NCBI GenBank assembly: GCA_016124735.1
Contig: WGMZ01000038.1
Span: 16,643 to 80,642, forward strand
Direction: 5' to 3'
DNA: 64,000 nucleotides
Source of the DNA: Bacteroidota bacterium
Lineage (GTDB): Bacteria; Bacteroidota; Bacteroidia; UBA8524
Under the pieces are notes generated by a model. It was not told the DNA's origin. It did not search any database and was given only the letters and a program-made list of their open reading frames with translations. Shown here one piece after another: positions 34,959 through 45,057 of the stretch; positions within the stretch are counted from its first letter, which is position 1, and each line of letters opens with the position of its first letter. Position numbers and translations under genes: made by a program.

Positions 34959-36641
34959 TTAGATTTTCGCTTCAACTTCCTTCTGAAGCTCCACGACTGT
35001 TTTCTCCGTATCCTGATAAATGGTCTCAGCCTCATCCAATATCGATTGTATCGCCGACTTGTCTTTAAGTCCTCCTGCATTCACTTTAACATTCAAATAA
35101 GCTCCGGCAACGGCAGTGCGTACACATAAGGCCCCTACTCCGGCATCCGTTACCGAATTCGGATTTCCTTCGCGAATCATAGAAGCCAACATTGGCAATA
35201 CAGCATGCGCCGTTTTCATCACTTCAAATGGCACACGGCAGGCATTGATTGTTGCCTCTCTAATGGCATTCGAGCGAATGGCCTTTTCTTCATCCGTCCC
35301 TTTTGGCAAGGCAAAACTTTCCATGATTGCATTAAATGCCCGGGTATCCTCATCCACCTGAGCCAACATTTTCTTGAGAATATGCTGTCCTTCCGTAGCT
35401 TTTTGAGAAAAGAAATCGGTTTTATCCTCCCAACCTCTTTTTCCTGCCGACAAATTTGCAACCATGGTACCGAGTGCGGTTCCCAGGGCACCGGCATAGG
35501 CAGATACGGATCCACCACCAGGTGCCGGGCTTTCAGAAGCCGTTTCGTATGCCAGTTGTTTTGCGGTCATTGAAATCAGGTGTTCATCTTCCGAATCTCT
35601 CAATTGATATTCTATGATCTTTTTGTTTGGATCAAAGGGCGCCAATTCATCGAGCCCCAAAGATTTCACAGCGATGTGAATCAGTTCATCCTCGCTTACC
35701 CCCAAGGAACGGCCCTGTTTTTTCAGAAAATATTCCCCCGCATCGAGCATGGCTTTCAACGGAATTAATCCAACAAGTTCGGATCCGGTTACCCGCAATC
35801 CGCGACTTTGAGCAGACTCGCAAACGGCATCAAAGGCCACGTGAACAGGTGTAATAAGGTAATTGGTCAGGTTCATGGAAATCTGAGCCACACCATATTC
35901 CTCAATGTACCAGCCGATGGCTTTTGTAGACTTAAGCTTTCCCGGAATACGAATGGGTTCTCCATTTTCATCCAATACAGTCTCTCCCAATACTGGATGA
36001 CCCGCTCTTTTTACCCGTCCTGCCTCGCGCACATCAAAGGCCACTGAATTTGCCAGGCGGGTGGATTTTGTGTTGAGATTGATATTGTAAGCAATCAGAA
36101 ATTCGCGGGCACCAATAACAGTTGCTCCCGAACGCGCCGGAAATTCCGATGGACCGAAGTCGGGTTTCCATTTCGGCTCTTTGATTTTCTTAAAGAAGCC
36201 TTCGTATTCGCCCGCGCGAATCACTGAAAGATTGCTGCGCTCCATATTGGGTTGTGCCTGTTCATATAAATACACAGGAATTGCTAATTCTTCTCCTACG
36301 CGCTTTGCAAGTTTCACTGCATACTCAGCCGTTTCCTCCATGCTGATGCCAGCGACAGGAATCAAAGGACATACATCGGTCGCACCCATGCGCGGATGCT
36401 CGCCCTGATGTTTGCTCATATCGATCAGTTCAGAAGCTTTTTTAATTCCCTGAAAAGCCGCCTCAATCACTTGTTTGGGTTCTCCAACCAATGTAACAAC
36501 CGTGCGATTGGTTGCTTTACCCGGATCCACGTCCAAAAGTTTCACTCCTTCAACCTTCTCAATCTCCGCTGTTATTTGCTTGATTATATTCAGGTCGTTC
36601 CCTTCACTGAAATTGGGTACACATTCGATGATTTGTTTCAT
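34959..36641 (-). CDS. ftcD: Bifunctional glutamate formimidoyltransferase / formimidoyltetrahydrofolate cyclodeaminase
   Basis: 560 residues from the ATG at 36641 (MKQIIECVPNFSEGND is the family start); the longer ORF-track version reads through the upstream terminator. Residues 1-330 form the formiminotransferase with KHQGEHPRMGATDVCPLIPV. The last 210 residues form the FTCD_C cyclodeaminase (SESPAPGGGSVSAYAGALGTALGTMVANLS). Together they move the formimino group from histidine breakdown to tetrahydrofolate and release ammonia. Other hut genes are not adjacent here. Confidence 0.95.
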   Translation of the reverse strand: MKQIIECVPNFSEGNDLNIIKQITAEIEKVEGVKLLDVDPGKATNRTVVTLVGEPKQVIEAAFQGIKKASELIDMSKHQGEHPRMGATDVCPLIPVAGISMEETAEYAVKLAKRVGEELAIPVYLYEQAQPNMERSNLSVIRAGEYEGFFKKIKEPKWKPDFGPSEFPARSGATVIGAREFLIAYNINLNTKSTRLANSVAFDVREAGRVKRAGHPVLGETVLDENGEPIRIPGKLKSTKAIGWYIEEYGVAQISMNLTNYLITPVHVAFDAVCESAQSRGLRVTGSELVGLIPLKAMLDAGEYFLKKQGRSLGVSEDELIHIAVKSLGLDELAPFDPNKKIIEYQLRDSEDEHLISMTAKQLAYETASESPAPGGGSVSAYAGALGTALGTMVANLSAGKRGWEDKTDFFSQKATEGQHILKKMLAQVDEDTRAFNAIMESFALPKGTDEEKAIRSNAIREATINACRVPFEVMKTAHAVLPMLASMIREGNPNSVTDAGVGALCVRTAVAGAYLNVKVNAGGLKDKSAIQSILDEAETIYQDTEKTVVELQKEVEAKI

Positions 36642-36685
36642 GCTTCTGAAATTAGTTTGGCAAAAATGGGAGGCCGCGGCAGGAA

Positions 36686-36718
36686 AAACAAAAAAGCCGG
36701 GAAAAATTTCCCGGCTCC
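36686..36718 (-). terminator. Terminator after the second gldN copy
   Basis: On the minus strand, GCCGGGAAA / TTTCCCGGC forms a strong stem, followed by TTTTTTG. It lies between the gldN-like gene and ftcD, so ftcD is transcribed separately. Confidence 0.8.
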
Positions 36719-36739
36719 TATAATCCAACAATGAAATAA

Positions 36740-37657
36740 TTAGTATTCCCAGAGGTCGTGTTCCATCACAAAGAGGTCATTTTTAATCTCTTCGCTCTTC
36801 AATAAAGCAGCCAAACCATTGTCTTCGAATTCCGGATAATATTTCAAGGGAGCATCCATCACGTTCGGTTCCTTGATGATTTGAGAATCGAACATACGTG
36901 CCTGAAAATAATGATCCATAGAGATTCGATGCGCCAAATTTTTGTTGAACACTTCTGCATTAACGAAGAAAGGACGGATATCATTGTACTTCATCCAAAA
37001 TAAAGGCTGCTCATTTAACTCTACCGAGCCTCCTGCCACGACAGGTCTGTATACAATAGCTATGCCTACAATCCTGGGATACATTCGGCTCTGGACATTA
37101 TCAAAAACCCAGTCTTCCATGATCTGAAGTTTTACGAGAGACTCAAACGGCACGGCCCCTTTGACCGGCACTGTCATAGTACCTCCGTTGATTGTGTCAG
37201 GCACGTCAACATATTCAACATAGGTCAAACGATCTTTCATTTCCTGATCGCTCAATTCCTGTTTAAAATCCCGGTCGCTGTACATTTTCGGGCCATCTGA
37301 TTGCAGAGCCAATTTAAGCATCAAATCAAAGACACTCAATTTGGGATAGCGAAGCACTATATTCATTTTTTGCCTAGTGTCGATAATTCGCTCATAGCGC
37401 GTCATCCAGCTCACATCGCCTTCGCGCAGATTAGGATACTCCCACATCACCTGCTTTGGGATATCCGCTTTGGGATATTCGGGCACCGCTTCAAAGTTGA
37501 TCCGATATGGATCAAATTCATCCAGCCAGGTTTGGACATTTCCTGTCAAGCTGGTAGCGGTGGTTTCAAAAAAGTCATATGGCTCGGTTTGGGCCAGTAC
37601 TGGGTTCTTCTGGGTCGCGAGAATGACCATGAACAGAACTATGCTTAAATTTTTCAT
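36740..37657 (-). CDS. GldN-like protein, second copy (T9SS/gliding ring component)
   Basis: 305 residues with a signal peptide (MKNLSIVLFMVILATQKNPVLAQ). It aligns by eye to the GldN at 39392-40237: YPNLREGDVSWMTRYERIIDTRQKMN parallels YPYLREADVAYSKRIWRTIDTRQKQN, MEDWVFD parallels MEDWIFD, and both end in FEDNG..LLKS.EI.N.LF.MEHDLWEY. GldN forms a periplasmic ring with lipoprotein GldK at the outer membrane. This copy has a different middle section (INGGTMTVPVKGAVPFESL). It overlaps the second gldM by 4 bp. It may be an alternative ring subunit comparable with F. johnsoniae GldO. Confidence 0.88.
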   Translation of the reverse strand: MKNLSIVLFMVILATQKNPVLAQTEPYDFFETTATSLTGNVQTWLDEFDPYRINFEAVPEYPKADIPKQVMWEYPNLREGDVSWMTRYERIIDTRQKMNIVLRYPKLSVFDLMLKLALQSDGPKMYSDRDFKQELSDQEMKDRLTYVEYVDVPDTINGGTMTVPVKGAVPFESLVKLQIMEDWVFDNVQSRMYPRIVGIAIVYRPVVAGGSVELNEQPLFWMKYNDIRPFFVNAEVFNKNLAHRISMDHYFQARMFDSQIIKEPNVMDAPLKYYPEFEDNGLAALLKSEEIKNDLFVMEHDLWEY

Positions 37658-39177
37658 CTTCTTGTATTTAGGGTGAGACTAAAGATTTGATCCGGGAATT
37701 TATCCACCATAACATTGTCGAAGTAAACGGTGGAACCAGTGGCCATTGCATTCAATGCTTGTCTGGCCTCCGGGCTTATTCTTTGCCCCGTTAGATGAAA
37801 AATCCGGCTCATATTTCCTCTCGGGTCAACAATTCGCATCTCAGAGGAAAGCACTTTATACTGTAAATCCCTGATATATACCCCTCCAAGTCCGGCTACC
37901 ATTAAGTTTTGAGCCAGAATAGCCTGCTTGCTGTAGGTTTTTGTTCCATCCAATGCTCCAAAGCTGATTTCCGGGTTAGGAACGCGGCGCACCAGGAAAG
38001 TTTCAGAGCCCATGGGCTTCCAGTTTCCATAGTCGTCTTTGACCATTACCCTTACAGTAACCTTACCCGTGCCGGTCAATTTTGCGATATATTCACTTTC
38101 TCCCCGTTTGGTCAATGTACCACCGGTAATTTCGGCTTTGACATGGGATGGAGCCACACCCGGCACCGTGATAGTTAGTGGGTTGTCGTATTTGGTATAC
38201 AAAATCTTCGTGTTGTCTGCCGAGATATTCGCCCCACCATTGAAGACATTATACGAAGTGGTAAAGGGATATTTTCTCAGTGAATCCGATTCCCGTACCC
38301 AGATTTCACCATTCACCGTGTGTACACCAGGGCCTCCTGCCGGTACATTGTAGGTGAATTTTCCATTTTCCTCAGCCACTTTCTCGCCATTGATATAAAT
38401 CTCATGTTTCTGTTTGGTGGAAAATGCCGTTAAGTAAATGTCTGCTTTGAATTGATCACCGGCCATCAAATAACTCGAATTCGGTACCACCGCGGCTTCA
38501 ATCTTATCTATAGGCAGACTGCTTGAACCAACATGCCGGTAAAGATTTCGCAAAACATCGTTCGTTGTCACTTTGCAATCATTTTGAATCTTGGACATCA
38601 TGGCAACCACGGCCGCTAAAGGACTATGCTCAAAATGGAAGGAAGCCCATGATTGGGTGCCATAATCCTGTGCATTTAAATCGCTGCGAACATTTTTCAC
38701 ATCTTCCTTCGGCAGGAGTGCCAACAGCTGATCATGGGTATTATTGATCTTATCCATCAATTCTTTGCCCTTTCCTTCATTGATCAAATAGTTCGCATGC
38801 TTTTCAATATCATCTCTGCCCACAAGCTCTGTTTTAGAACCATCTTCACTCTCTTCCCTTCCACCGGTTTCATCAATCAAAATATTCTTCAGGTTTTCTA
38901 CATATTGATTGAATTCATTATTTAGTCTTTCAGCCTCCATGGCCTTGTCATAATAAGGACGCGTCAGGTCAGGCTGAGTAATCAGAAGCCGGTCAAATGC
39001 AGAAAGGATTTCATCATTTTTTGCTGTCATGTTGACCCCGGTTTGATCCATTGAGGTTTCCATGAGAAAAAATGCTTTTAAGATTTCGGCGGAAACGTTG
39101 AGTGCCAACATCGCCGTTAGGATGAGATACATTACGTTGATCATCCTCTGCCTGGGAGTTATTTTAGCTACAGTCAT
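37654..39177 (-). CDS. GldM-like protein, second copy (T9SS motor component)
   Basis: 507 residues. The single N-terminal membrane helix RMINVMYLILTAMLALNVSAEILKAF keeps the Glu (residue 31) that in GldM helps proton-driven rotation inside the GldL ring. Four periplasmic domains follow, with landmarks shared with the main GldM: SSLPIDKIEAAVVPNSSYLMAGDQF, ISADNTKILYTKYDNPLTITVPGVAPSHVKA and PEISFGALDGTKTYSKQAILAQ. It lies after the gldN terminator and has no gldL beside it. It may form an alternative or mixed motor with the one GldL. Confidence 0.9.
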   Translation of the reverse strand: MTVAKITPRQRMINVMYLILTAMLALNVSAEILKAFFLMETSMDQTGVNMTAKNDEILSAFDRLLITQPDLTRPYYDKAMEAERLNNEFNQYVENLKNILIDETGGREESEDGSKTELVGRDDIEKHANYLINEGKGKELMDKINNTHDQLLALLPKEDVKNVRSDLNAQDYGTQSWASFHFEHSPLAAVVAMMSKIQNDCKVTTNDVLRNLYRHVGSSSLPIDKIEAAVVPNSSYLMAGDQFKADIYLTAFSTKQKHEIYINGEKVAEENGKFTYNVPAGGPGVHTVNGEIWVRESDSLRKYPFTTSYNVFNGGANISADNTKILYTKYDNPLTITVPGVAPSHVKAEITGGTLTKRGESEYIAKLTGTGKVTVRVMVKDDYGNWKPMGSETFLVRRVPNPEISFGALDGTKTYSKQAILAQNLMVAGLGGVYIRDLQYKVLSSEMRIVDPRGNMSRIFHLTGQRISPEARQALNAMATGSTVYFDNVMVDKFPDQIFSLTLNTRR

Positions 39178-39341
39178 AGAATTTAGGTTAGTGAAAGTAG
39201 CTTTAGGGCATAGGCAATTACATAGTGGAGAGCGGAGAACGTCAAGCGAATGTATTAATCACAGTACCCAGATTCTCAGCAGATTAGTTTATAATTAAAA
39301 AACGAAAAGCCCATTGAGGATATTGTACGTACACAAAAAAA

Positions 39342-39366
39342 CCCTGACTCTCAAGGAGAATCAGGG
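39342..39366 (-). terminator. Terminator between gldN and the second gldM-gldN pair
   Basis: On the minus strand, GCCCTGATTCTC / GAGAGTCAGGG is followed by TTTTTTTG. It separates porP-gldKLMN from the second gldMN pair, so the pair likely has its own promoter in 39178-39340, although no exact TAnnTTTG was found there. Confidence 0.85.
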
Positions 39367-39391
39367 CTTTTAGTTTTCTTATCAGGAATGG

Positions 39392-40237
39392 TTAATATTC
39401 CCAAAGATCATGTTCCATGATGAAGAGATTGTTTTCGATTTCATCTGATTTCAGAAGAAGTCCGATCCCATTGTCTTCAAACTCCGGAAAATCTTTTAAA
39501 CGGTAATCGTATTCATTCGATTCTTTGTAGATATAGCTGGCGAACATCCTCGACTCAAACCAATGATCATAGGATATGCGCGCTGCGTCATTTCTACGGT
39601 TGAACAATTCCCAGTTAATCATTACACTCCTCAATTCCGGATAATATATCCAAAATAGTGCCTGCTCAGGTAATTCTACTCCACCTGCAATTGGCTGGTA
39701 AGCCGGAGCAATGGCAATAATTCTTGCAAAAAATACTGCATGCTTCTTGTCAAAAATCCAATCTTCCATCAAATAGAACTTCTCAATCTTGAGTGGATCA
39801 AATGGAGTAGTAATGACCGTATCTATCAAATCATACGGATCATCCGGATTTTCCGGATTGATGATTTGTTGGTTCTCTCTGTATACACCCAAATCAAGAA
39901 CTTCCTCAGGAGTATAGATTGAAACCAACGAATCGGAACGATATGGAGTAAGAATACCATCATTTACTGCTTTGTAAATCATGTTACCGAAATGGCTTTT
40001 AGGCCATTTCATCACCAGATTTTGCTTTTGGCGGGTATCAATAGTTCTCCAGATACGTTTGCTGTATGCTACATCCGCTTCTCTTAAATATGGATACGGT
40101 ACAGCTTTGCGCTGTTTCACAGCAGCCTTTTCGTAAGTCCAGTCTTCGTAAACGGTTGCATCGTAATCAGGCTGCGCGTATGCTGCACCAGCCAGCGCAA
40201 CCAAAGCAAACAATGATGCTATTCTTAATCCTTTCAT
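39392..40237 (-). CDS. gldN: Gliding motility / T9SS ring protein GldN (PorN)
   Basis: 281 residues with a signal peptide (MKGLRIASLFALVALAGAAYAQ). Family motifs include YPYLREADVAYSKRIWRTIDTRQKQNLVM, IEKFYLMEDWIFD, HWFESRMFASYIYKESNEYDYRLKDF and the C-terminal MEHDLWEY. GldN and lipoprotein GldK form the periplasmic ring that couples to GldM. It begins 3 bp after gldM in the canonical KLMN order. Confidence 0.95.
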   Translation of the reverse strand: MKGLRIASLFALVALAGAAYAQPDYDATVYEDWTYEKAAVKQRKAVPYPYLREADVAYSKRIWRTIDTRQKQNLVMKWPKSHFGNMIYKAVNDGILTPYRSDSLVSIYTPEEVLDLGVYRENQQIINPENPDDPYDLIDTVITTPFDPLKIEKFYLMEDWIFDKKHAVFFARIIAIAPAYQPIAGGVELPEQALFWIYYPELRSVMINWELFNRRNDAARISYDHWFESRMFASYIYKESNEYDYRLKDFPEFEDNGIGLLLKSDEIENNLFIMEHDLWEY

Positions 40238-40239
40238 GA

Positions 40240-41805
40240 TTATCTACATGTAATTACAAGCGGAGAAAGGTTACGTTTTCCATCCGGGCCGGTAGCCTGA
40301 ATGTTATCGATAATTATCCTGTCGCCACTTCTGATTCTTCCAACAATACTTCTCGCCTGGCCTGGCAATGCGGTACCTTGTCCCTGAACCATGATCGCAT
40401 CCCCTCTTTTAGGAGAGTATACAAACAGGTAAGAGTTAATGGAATACTTCACACCTTCGTATGCAAAACCTTCGCCCAAGGTTCCATATACGCCCGGTTG
40501 AGCTTTGATGGCACCTGCGGAGTGTGTTCCACTTTCCAGGGTTCCTAAGGTAGCCTCTGGTTTTGGGATAGAACGAACACGGAATGGTGATTGGTATGTT
40601 TTTGATTTGCCATTTTCGGTTACGCTCACCACGATTTTGCAATCGCCACGTTTGCTCACTCTGGCAATATATTTACCGCCACCCTTGTTAATCAGGGAGC
40701 CAGCTCCACTCAATGAAGCCTTCACATCATTTGGATTTTTACCCGGAATCGCAATGGTGATAGGGTTATCCAAACCAATGTACAATACGTTCATTTTATC
40801 GGCGGAGATTGAAGCCTCCCCTTTAAATACGGAGTATTCTTTTTCAAAGTCGTATTTCTTCACTCCATCTTTGGAGTTAACTTCGATATACCCTTTGATT
40901 TTATAGTCCCCAGGAGTAGATGTTGATTTTTTATATTTAACCACACCATTCTCCATTTGATATTCTTCGCCATTGATAAACACTTTATTGTTTTGCTTGG
41001 AATCGTAAGCCGTCAGAATAACATCAGCAGTAAATTCTTCCCCTGCAGAAACTGCAGCTTTGTCTGGAATAAATTTAGCTACCAACATATCGAAAGAAAC
41101 ATCTTCGGCGGTGATACCAGAGAACAGCGCTGTTAACACTTCTGCTTCTGTGTTTTTTGCGTCGTTCTGAATCTTTGTTAACAGTGTGACAACAGCTGCC
41201 TGAGGTGAATGTTCGAACAATTCTGATTCCCAGGTTGCTGCCGTTCCTTCTGGATTCTCCGCCCGCAAATCAGTTTGCTGATCAATACGTTTTGCTTCCG
41301 ATGCCAATGGTTTGAATGGCTTCAACACAGACAACAATGAATTGCGCGTTGCATTTACCTTTTCATGCAATTCCTTACCTTTTTCCGGTCCCTCAGGAGA
41401 GATCATAATAAAGGCATGTGTTTCAATATCCGTTCTGTGTACCAATTGACCATCCGGATCACGTATTTCATTTTGATCGGTGATCTTTCCTCCGTCTGTA
41501 ATGATCTCTTGTTTAAGATCTTCCACATATTTAACAAAATCTGCAGTGATTTTCTCAGCATCCTTTGCTTTATCGTAGAATGGTTTTGTTTTCTCTGGCT
41601 GATTTTTCATCTGTTTTGCAAAAGCACGCATGATGTCTTCGTTCTTTGCATCGATGTTTTTACCCGCCTTAACCATGCTTTCTTCCACAAGGTAGAAAGC
41701 CTTCAAGATTTCTGCAGAAACGTTCAACGCGAGCATCGCCGTTAATACGAGATACATCATGTTGATCATCTTCTGCCGTGGTGATATTTTACCTCCTCCT
41801 GCCAT
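40240..41805 (-). CDS. gldM: Gliding motility / T9SS motor protein GldM (PorM)
   Basis: 521 residues. The single N-terminal membrane helix QKMINMMYLVLTAMLALNVSAEILKAF (Glu at residue 32) inserts in the GldL pentamer. The large periplasmic part has four domains (D1-D4) with LVAKFIPDKAAVSAGEEFTADVILTAYD and ISADKMNVLYIGLDNPITIAIPG. The protein transmits rotation across the periplasm to the GldKN ring. A divergent second copy is at 37654-39177. Confidence 0.95.
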   Translation of the reverse strand: MAGGGKISPRQKMINMMYLVLTAMLALNVSAEILKAFYLVEESMVKAGKNIDAKNEDIMRAFAKQMKNQPEKTKPFYDKAKDAEKITADFVKYVEDLKQEIITDGGKITDQNEIRDPDGQLVHRTDIETHAFIMISPEGPEKGKELHEKVNATRNSLLSVLKPFKPLASEAKRIDQQTDLRAENPEGTAATWESELFEHSPQAAVVTLLTKIQNDAKNTEAEVLTALFSGITAEDVSFDMLVAKFIPDKAAVSAGEEFTADVILTAYDSKQNNKVFINGEEYQMENGVVKYKKSTSTPGDYKIKGYIEVNSKDGVKKYDFEKEYSVFKGEASISADKMNVLYIGLDNPITIAIPGKNPNDVKASLSGAGSLINKGGGKYIARVSKRGDCKIVVSVTENGKSKTYQSPFRVRSIPKPEATLGTLESGTHSAGAIKAQPGVYGTLGEGFAYEGVKYSINSYLFVYSPKRGDAIMVQGQGTALPGQARSIVGRIRSGDRIIIDNIQATGPDGKRNLSPLVITCR

Positions 41806-41846: not shown

Positions 41847-42491
41847 TTATGCTTTGTTTCCACCCATTGCAGTCAGCATGTTGCCGTACACTGAGTTCAA
41901 GCTGGAAATATTGGAAGCCAATTTTTTCATTTCGCTGCTGATTTGCTCAACTTGCGACTGGTATTCTTTTGTACCAGAAGAAATTTCAGCAAGTGAGTTC
42001 ATTGCGTCCATTGCTTTGTTGTAAGAAGCAGAAACTCCTTCCAAAGACTTGGAAGCTTTTTGAACACTTTCCGTGTATTCGCTGGTAGCTACAGTAGCGC
42101 TGGAGATATCAGACATACCTCTTACGTTTTCGCTCAAGCTTTTCAATCCGCTTCCCAAGCTGCTGATCAATTCAGGACCAACTTTTGCTTCTTCCAACAT
42201 TTTATCAAGCTGTTGTGAAACAGTTCCTTTGTTTTCAGATTTCTTTTCGTTTGGTTCCATTCCTGCCAATTCAGGATAAACCAATGACCAGTCTACCTCC
42301 TGGTGAATTGGTTCGAAGGCAGAAATACAGAAAATCACAGCCTCTGTACCCATACCGATAATGAGCATGGTGTTAGCACCTGGCCAGTGCATAATTTTGA
42401 ACAATGCACCAACAATTACAACTGCCGCACCGAGACCATAGGCCATTCCCATGAGTTTCTTGCCCGTTTTACTTTCAAAAAAGTTTGCCAT
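41847..42491 (-). CDS. gldL: Gliding motility / T9SS motor protein GldL (PorL)
   Basis: 214 residues with two membrane helices near the N-terminus (about 13-32 and 40-59). The conserved Glu in TM2 (IGMGTEAVIFCISAFEP, residue 50) is the proton-carrying residue of the GldL5-GldM2 motor. The FKIMHWPGANTM turn lies between the helices. The cytoplasmic C-terminus is a long Ser/Ala-rich coiled coil. It is the only gldL in the window although gldM is present twice. Confidence 0.95.
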   Translation of the reverse strand: MANFFESKTGKKLMGMAYGLGAAVVIVGALFKIMHWPGANTMLIIGMGTEAVIFCISAFEPIHQEVDWSLVYPELAGMEPNEKKSENKGTVSQQLDKMLEEAKVGPELISSLGSGLKSLSENVRGMSDISSATVATSEYTESVQKASKSLEGVSASYNKAMDAMNSLAEISSGTKEYQSQVEQISSEMKKLASNISSLNSVYGNMLTAMGGNKA

Positions 42492-42573: not shown

Positions 42574-43890
42574 CTAAGGCTCGCGGTCCTTGTTAGATCT
42601 ACCCATGAAGGACATTACACAACGGAAGCCCACGTAAGATTTTGCTGTATCCTGGTACTCATAAGTACGGGTACCGTTTTGAATATAATAGGCAATATCT
42701 TTCCAGGATCCACCACGAATCACTTTGCGGCGAGCCGTGTAAGGTAAGTCAGGGTTTGGACGACTCAAATACTTGTCTTCTGCCGGATAAATATTGGCAT
42801 CAAATTGATAGTCTGAGTTCAAGTCATCTGTAAATGTATGCGACTCGTCATCGTAAGCTGAACTTGTCCACTCTGCCACGTTTCCAGCCATATTATACAG
42901 ACCATAATCGTTCGGGAAATAAGAGTATGCACGAACAGGGTAAACACCACCATCGGCCTGGTAATCTCCGCGACCCGGTTTGAAGTTAGCAAGGAAACAT
43001 CCTTTGGAGTTCCGTGTATACGGACCACCCCATGGATACATATTTCCATCCCGTCCACCACGCGCTGCGTATTCCCATTCGTATTCCGTTGGAAGGCGGA
43101 AAGGATTGACGATTGGCTCCTCCATGGACTCATAGTATTCGTTCAGGTGACCTGTTCTCCAGGCGCAGAATGCTTTGGCCTGATCCCAGTCTACTCCTAC
43201 TACAGGATAGTTGTCATATTTTGGATGCCAGAAGTACATCTGAGTCATGGGCTCATTGAATGAGTAAGCGTAATCGCGAACGAAAGTCAAAGTATCCGGA
43301 TACACGCGCACATTTTCGCGACGGATAAACTGAGAACGATCTGCATCTTCATCTGCAAAAGCCGCGGCCTTGATATCAATCCACTCATAGTAATATACGA
43401 GCTTACGGGTATCGATTGCGCGTTTCTTGTAGTAACGCTCGCTTTCCTTTAACATAATAGGCGCCAGGGCGTCTTCAATGTTTTCTTTCTCATCTTCGTA
43501 ACCCCAGGGAATTTCCTCATCGTAGTTGATGTGCATGTCGCCATACTCATCTTCCATGATATAGGGTTCGGCCATAAGATAACGGGCCATGGAGTCTATC
43601 ACGTGGTTCACAAACTGACGGTATTCGTTGTTTGTGATTTCGGTGTCGTCCATGTAAAAGGAAGTAACCGTAATCTGCTTATTCGGTGAGATATGTGTTT
43701 GGAATACGTCATTATCCGCCTGGCCGGCATGGTAGGTACCCGTAGGTACATACACCGTTCCAAGAGGCTGTGGATGAAACCAGGGTCTCCGTCCACGTAC
43801 TCCCACAAGCTCACCGCGATCGTTGTTCAACCCACATCCGAACAACGTCATTACGGAAACTATTAACAGTACACTTTTTATGTTTTTCAT
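42574..43890 (-). CDS. gldK: Gliding motility / T9SS lipoprotein GldK (PorK)
   Basis: 438 residues from the ATG at 43890; the ORF-track TTG is three codons upstream. It has a lipoprotein signal (VSVMTLFGCGLN, lipobox Cys at about residue 20). The rest is a formylglycine-generating-enzyme-like (SUMF1) domain with VPTGTYHAGQ, YMDDTEITNNEYRQF, PVVGVDWDQAKAFCAWR, RLPTEYEWEYAARGG, GNVAEWTSSAYD and IRGGSWKD, repurposed for structure. GldK joins GldN in the outer-membrane-associated ring. Confidence 0.95.
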   Translation of the reverse strand: MKNIKSVLLIVSVMTLFGCGLNNDRGELVGVRGRRPWFHPQPLGTVYVPTGTYHAGQADNDVFQTHISPNKQITVTSFYMDDTEITNNEYRQFVNHVIDSMARYLMAEPYIMEDEYGDMHINYDEEIPWGYEDEKENIEDALAPIMLKESERYYKKRAIDTRKLVYYYEWIDIKAAAFADEDADRSQFIRRENVRVYPDTLTFVRDYAYSFNEPMTQMYFWHPKYDNYPVVGVDWDQAKAFCAWRTGHLNEYYESMEEPIVNPFRLPTEYEWEYAARGGRDGNMYPWGGPYTRNSKGCFLANFKPGRGDYQADGGVYPVRAYSYFPNDYGLYNMAGNVAEWTSSAYDDESHTFTDDLNSDYQFDANIYPAEDKYLSRPNPDLPYTARRKVIRGGSWKDIAYYIQNGTRTYEYQDTAKSYVGFRCVMSFMGRSNKDREP

Positions 43891-43931
43891 ATCAAGCAAT
43901 ATGAATTGAATTTACAAGTTTATTCTTTTGA

Positions 43932-44019: not shown

Positions 44020-45057
44020 TTAATACAGGGTATAGCCCTCCAGGTAACGGACATTGTAACGAGGCCTTAAAGTCTTTTCTGGCTTAGGGTTAATGTCGAA
44101 ACAATAACTAGCAAATATCTCGTGAGTTCCTGTATGGGTGTATTGATTGACTTTTGAAAAGGCCGTGAAGTCATAAGAATACCCCACATAGAGGTTCGGT
44201 TGAACATAGTAACCGAGCAAAAGACTCAAGGCATCTCTGCTTCGGATATTGATTCCGCCCACTATTTTGTCGTTCAGCATCGCCCGAACTCCGAGGTCAA
44301 CCTGTGTAGGGGCTCCGAGTGACTTTATCATAATGCTGGGCATGATGGCCAGATTTCCAAAATCATGGCGACTGCCCGCAATCATATATAAGTATCGGCT
44401 TGCAGTAAGGTTAAAGGCAGTTGGAATATTTACCGACGGAGCCGTAATATGAGTCATGGATATACCTGCATAAAATCCATCAAACAAACTTTGATGCGTA
44501 TAATATAATCCGGCACCCATGTCAAACTTCCCTCCACTCACCAAACTACTAGGGATTTTAGGGTCGCCTGACTGTAATGGATTGTATTTTGTACCGTCCA
44601 ATTGAATTTGAATCATTCCAAAATCCGCTCCTATTGCGAGGGTCTGATCCGTTGAGCCATCGGGAAGTTTGCGTCCCATCCGAAACTTATAGGAAAGTGA
44701 CCCGCGAAAATATGTGTCTTTGGTATACCCCAGCTTATCGGTAATAACCTGAAAACCCACTCCTACCTGATTATTCAGAATAGGTGCCGTGATGCTAAAG
44801 CTGTTGGTTGCCGGGTTTACCGGATCGTTCCACTGACCAACACCAGGTTTGTATATTCCATCCTGCGCTTTCTGCCCCAACCATTGCTGATGGGAAAGTC
44901 CGTTGACGCAAATGGCGTCTTTTTCACCAGCCACCGCAGGATTATACGCCAGCTTGTTCAGCATATAGTGCGTATAGTACGGATCCAGCTGTGCAGAAGA
45001 GTGTACAGAGAATAATACAGTGCCCAGAACGATTAGTTTCGTAAAGTTTTTTCGCAT
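44020..45057 (-). CDS. T9SS outer membrane protein PorP/SprF family
   Basis: 345 residues with a signal peptide (MRKNFTKLIVLGTVLFSVHSSAQ), then DPYYTHYMLNKLAYNPAVAGEKDAICVNGLSHQQWLG, the hallmark PorP/SprF start. A beta-barrel of amphipathic strands follows (ADFGMIQIQLDGTKYNPL, GAGLYYTHQSLFDGFYAGISMTHI). PorP/SprF proteins help deliver or anchor T9SS substrates at the surface, including type B CTD proteins such as the one at 12573. It directly precedes gldK. Confidence 0.93.
   Translation of the reverse strand: MRKNFTKLIVLGTVLFSVHSSAQLDPYYTHYMLNKLAYNPAVAGEKDAICVNGLSHQQWLGQKAQDGIYKPGVGQWNDPVNPATNSFSITAPILNNQVGVGFQVITDKLGYTKDTYFRGSLSYKFRMGRKLPDGSTDQTLAIGADFGMIQIQLDGTKYNPLQSGDPKIPSSLVSGGKFDMGAGLYYTHQSLFDGFYAGISMTHITAPSVNIPTAFNLTASRYLYMIAGSRHDFGNLAIMPSIMIKSLGAPTQVDLGVRAMLNDKIVGGINIRSRDALSLLLGYYVQPNLYVGYSYDFTAFSKVNQYTHTGTHEIFASYCFDINPKPEKTLRPRYNVRYLEGYTLY

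Follow-up and report, generated by a model that had tools for sequence, protein, structure and literature searches.

GldM is the shaft of the proton-driven GldLM/PorLM motor of type IX secretion and gliding, which acts together with a GldKN/PorKN ring or track. In a study from 2025, GldK, GldN and GldJ were placed in one moving track, in which GldK is disulfide-linked to SprF and PorG (PMC12635249). The track is driven from the inner membrane by GldM, which meets it via the D4 domain and GldN. PorN docks on PorK by both terminal helices, and a cross-link between D4 of PorM and PorN was obtained at S460-A241 (PMC12421860). In F. johnsoniae a partly redundant gldN paralogue, gldO, adjoins gldN (PMC9127263). 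The field has yet to settle how the motor is coupled to secretion on the one hand and gliding on the other. In the open-access papers searched, neither a second gldM nor a surplus of gldM over gldL was found to be described.

Layout and gene content of the locus

The window, i.e. the whole stretch of 64,000 nucleotides that was analysed and whose coordinates are used throughout, carries the cluster entirely on the minus strand in the order porP, gldK, gldL, gldM1, gldN1, terminator, gldM2 and gldN2. All seven proteins exceeded their NCBIfam cut-offs and are full members of the known families. The first five genes follow the canonical porP-gldK-L-M-N order: porP (44020..45057; TIGR03519, 187 bits, cut-off 90.6), which leads the cluster and encodes an outer-membrane protein of the PorP/SprF family; gldK (42574..43899; TIGR03525, 551 bits, cut-off 350) for the ring/track lipoprotein; gldL (41847..42491; TIGR03513, 202 bits, cut-off 68.3); gldM1 (40240..41805; TIGR03517, 370 bits, cut-off 180) for the canonical shaft; and gldN1 (39392..40237; TIGR03523, 159 bits, cut-off 85.9) for the canonical ring/track subunit. 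They are followed by gldM2 (37654..39177; TIGR03517, 322 bits) for a second shaft and gldN2 (36740..37657; TIGR03523, 124 bits) for a second ring/track subunit, which overlap by the four bases ATGA, an overlap that is not kept among relatives. Unlike the described systems, the window has two GldM and two GldN per one GldL and one GldK, and the extra pair sits past a terminator. This confirms the preliminary description, which had reported a second, divergent gldM-gldN pair behind a terminator with a 4-bp overlap in a span (36740-40237) that runs from gldN1 to gldN2; both genes of the second pair are intact. Downstream (3′) of gldN2, positions 34959-36731 encode a 590-residue protein which, by its translation, resembles a glutamate formimidoyltransferase and cyclodeaminase-like fusion.

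GldM2 comprises all four GldM domains and GldN2 the GldN domain (Pfam, above cut-off), and GldM2 has the GldM/PorM architecture of a single membrane helix with Arg9 and Tyr17 followed by D1-D4. In the AlphaFold2 model of GldM2 the pLDDT averaged 83; D4 mostly reached 82-92, with one block at 64, and the best Foldseek matches of the model were PorM/GldM. For GldN2 (pLDDT 78) PorN chains were matched best (E 1.6e-11). Judged by these models, neither GldM2 nor GldN2 looks like a decaying protein.

In the gap between gldN1 and gldM2 an intrinsic terminator was located at 39337..39373 (minus strand), with a stem-loop of -22.1 kcal/mol (z -7.2) and a U run, so that the strong terminator previously noted ahead of the second pair was borne out. 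A terminator at this position was present in 5/5 family members, the hairpins of the four relatives differing in sequence, each being followed by T residues and ranging from -18.3 to -24.8 kcal/mol. Moreover, the block AGCTACTTTCACTAACC (39186..39202, minus strand), just 5′ of gldM2, is conserved inside the genus, judging by the intergenic stretches of the window, L039 and L040, and is a possible promoter or leader element. A sigma-70 promoter scan was uninformative (20 sites versus 21 expected). Based on the terminator and the conserved block, gldM2-gldN2 is likely transcribed separately from the first pair. A terminator-like hairpin with a 12-pair stem and a T-rich tail follows 3′ of gldN2 (36692..36719, minus strand).

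A search of the genome (3.1 Mb, 53 contigs, 98.6% complete) yielded two GldM, two GldN, one SprA and one GldL over cut-off, as well as one GldK and one GldJ-like protein. No second GldL over cut-off, and hence no second complete GldLM motor, was found across the 98.6%-complete genome, in which the earlier claim of only one gldL holds. The GldJ-like protein (425 bits, cut-off 458) adjoins a PorP-family gene, PorU and PorV, and the gliding-track protein GldJ is therefore probably present. Two GldL_N-like membrane proteins of 195 and 213 residues are encoded on contig C35 (L045, 8094-8681 and 10301-10942); they are short and multi-helix, with a KIMHWP or KVMHWP motif resembling GldL_N. They were rejected as GldL substitutes because the proton-carrying Glu of helix 2, the cytoplasmic domain and a gldM neighbour are all lacking. 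Plasmid records contained just two distant GldM, none related to the gldM2-gldN2 pair.

Age and recurrence of the duplication

Within the family, the K-L-M-N-M-N order of the window was also found in G001 (contig DQHT01000111.1, UBA8524) and G004, and a K-L-M-N-N-M order in G003. GldM1 and GldM2 of the family formed two sister clades (support 98); the careful tree supported this sisterhood moderately (82/77), and the GldN tree gave the same two-clade picture (support 90). These trees are most simply explained if the M-N pair was duplicated once, in the ancestor of the family; this supplies the dating by GldM and GldN trees that had been proposed beforehand. M2 and N2 have been kept across three genera. 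In the congener QJ.21 (G002; locus L040, 2527-3609), gldM2 is interrupted by a stop codon, and its 5′ portion continues in frame with the 3′ portion of gldN2, as though a deletion had joined the two genes; this represents either a real loss or an error of the MAG. At L139 there is no second tandem copy, just a 297-residue fragment elsewhere, and the single GldM at L142 falls on the side of M2 (97/95; AU p 0.026 for the other placement). Taken together, these three cases point to differential sorting of the copies among lineages, and the broken QJ.21 copy and L139 indicate that the pair can be dispensable.

According to the trees, an extra gldM 3′ of gldKLMN without an extra gldL has at least five independent origins in Bacteroidia, three of which are duplications of the full M-N pair. 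The K-L-M-N-M-N order occurs in clade B (L088, L090, L102, L109, L112, L117 and L131) and as a tandem cluster in G070 (L162), and K-L-M-N with one extra gldM downstream was found at L149 and in G090 and G144 (L163, L164). In each recurrence the second copies clustered with the first copies of their own lineage in the careful tree, and one ancient duplication common to the window's family and clade B was rejected (AU p 6e-5). The clade B genomes examined have one GldL, and in the L149 genome a further, partial GldL-like match exceeded the cut-off. At least 28 of the 149 sampled Bacteroidia genomes had GldM over cut-off at two places, a lower bound counted by hand among the matches listed, and among these matches only G050 of the at least 28 has a clear second full-length GldL. 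Hence, extra GldM without extra GldL seems to be common in Bacteroidia.

Divergence of GldM2 and GldN2 and possible roles of the second pair

Synonymous sites were near saturation; therefore, dN/dS ratios were dropped and raw proportions of non-synonymous difference between the window and G001 were compared. These were 0.16 for GldM2 and 0.15 for GldM1 in TM-D2, 0.24 versus 0.05 in D3, and 0.33 versus 0.13 in D4. In M2 of the window's family, 15/31 canonically conserved D3-D4 columns were altered versus 5/54 in TM-D2 (p 1e-4); no such concentration in D3-D4 was seen for the altered conserved columns of clade B. Counting changes against outgroups, the downstream GldM2 was the faster-evolving copy in 5/5 independent cases, with an acceleration of 2.2 to 3.2 fold in D4 (5/5 cases) and of 1.3 to 2.3 fold in TM-D2. 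The excess of D4 over TM-D2 was clear when the five cases were pooled; case by case it was clear in the window's family and in f9 but less so in clade B (0.033), and it did not reach significance in L162 or L149. The acceleration of D4 could be due to relaxed constraint. These comparisons showed, at the level of sequence, that the motor-facing half of GldM2 (TM, D1, D2) is as constrained as that of GldM1, and that D3-D4, the GldN-touching end, has been remodelled, GldN having been duplicated and remodelled alongside. Non-synonymous change far below synonymous change indicates purifying selection on both GldM2 and GldN2.

The GldL-facing residues Arg9 and Tyr17 were invariant in 49/49 GldM; loss of key contact residues in the second GldM, which had been named as a point against the proposed alternative shaft, was looked for and both residues were found to be kept. 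The preliminary description had pointed instead to a membrane-helix Glu retained in both copies. This Glu (E31) is indeed kept, but it lies only near the membrane helix, and an E31A exchange in GldM had no phenotype in F. johnsoniae (PMC8986121). It was therefore discarded as evidence in favour of the informative Arg9 and Tyr17.

In GldN2 the N-terminal and middle regions are accelerated and the C-terminal part keeps to the rate of GldN1; an extra stretch close to the N-terminus was modelled with low confidence. Alignment to the solved chains, with numbering offsets inferred by matching the residues named in the paper, placed Lys in M1 and Pro in M2 at the S460-equivalent, and Arg in N1 and Pro in N2 at the A241-equivalent, differences that are no more than suggestive. 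Like gldO, gldN2 is a tandem gldN duplicate 3′ of the cluster. In contrast to gldO, it is accompanied by a duplicated gldM, and in the tree GldN2 groups with the GldN1 of its own family, as expected of an independent event.

The reading favoured here, with middling confidence, is that gldM2-gldN2 is a functional and probably separately transcribed pair which shares the GldL motor with the first pair. After tandem duplication of gldM-gldN in the family ancestor, dimers of the paralogous GldM2 would be seated in the same GldL pentamer and would pass motion to GldN2, which would dock on a GldK ring or track common to both pairs, so that one proton motor could serve two interchangeable sets of shaft and ring subunit. 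A shared GldL motor with a second, alternative output is in keeping with the unchanged motor end of the GldM2-GldN2 set. The proposal, made on first description, that the pair could form another type of shaft running on one GldL found partial support in the missing second true gldL, the slow motor end, the changes in D3-D4 and the co-duplication of GldN, and the pattern recurs in independent duplications; the purpose of the second set stays conjectural, be it the specialisation for substrates or for motility versus secretion that had been proposed, or different loads. More tentatively, one pool of GldL motors may carry two exchangeable shafts, each with its own ring/track subunit, and so power two tracks that differ mechanically, e.g. 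one for secretion and one with GldJ for gliding. Such a division would have evolved repeatedly by duplication of just the downstream half of the motor cluster.

Under a somewhat unlikely alternative, the second pair is a gldO-like, partly redundant back-up providing dosage, with its tip drifting under relaxed constraint. The partial redundancy of the adjoining gldO with gldN in F. johnsoniae (PMC9127263), the frequency of tandem gldN duplicates and the broken or lost second pair of some members are in line with it; however, M2 and N2 have been held in three genera with non-synonymous far below synonymous change, constraint was lifted in one half of GldM2 only, the same half across independent duplications, and D4 of GldM2 is still modelled with high confidence. 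It is less probable that mixed assemblies are formed, GldM1 pairing with GldM2 inside a single GldL pentamer and both GldN copies sharing a ring or track, which would tune the contact instead of yielding two distinct machines: the TM, D1 and D2 parts of both GldM are alike and could co-dimerise, and there is a single GldK, GldJ-like protein and SprA, whereas the intervening terminator suggests that the two pairs are expressed independently of each other, perhaps at unequal levels. That the second pair is a relic, or that GldM2 is paired with the C35 proteins instead of GldL, could be argued from the broken gldM2 of QJ.21 and from the two GldL_N-like proteins in the genome, but appears very improbable in view of the intact frames, the strong purifying selection and the features that the C35 proteins lack.

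If the favoured reading of a shared GldL motor is correct, the locus may be likened to flagellar systems, in which alternative MotAB-type stators replace both subunits: in both cases a 5:2 ion-driven motor would have alternative components within one cell, with the difference that only the shaft is doubled in the window. A natural system with a doubled shaft could help to find out whether separate tracks are driven by one motor. Moreover, motor and shaft varying independently in unrelated lineages provide matched pairs for mapping the GldM-GldN contact.

Other gldL, gldM and gldN arrangements in Bacteroidia

Several further arrangements were observed. Solitary gldM genes with gldL, gldK and gldN absent nearby were found at L047, L051, L056, L059, L061, L063, L064 and L067; they form one clade (98) from several Bacteroidia families that also retain the canonical gldKLMN cluster, and comparison of their loci by eye revealed no evident common neighbours. 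Tandem gldN duplicates without a gldM duplicate occur at L046, L055, L068, L075, L113, L129 and L148 and have several independent origins; in those tested, the second copy was more changed overall. In G003, a 434-residue secreted-looking protein combines the third GldM domain with a MORN repeat (L044, 9351-10655). Additionally, the same genome carries a second, very divergent gldL-gldM pair (L043, 8463-10552) between bshC and a DUF6089 gene and without gldK or gldN, which retains, as judged by eye, the helix-2 Glu of GldL and the Arg and Tyr of GldM and is a possible complete extra motor.
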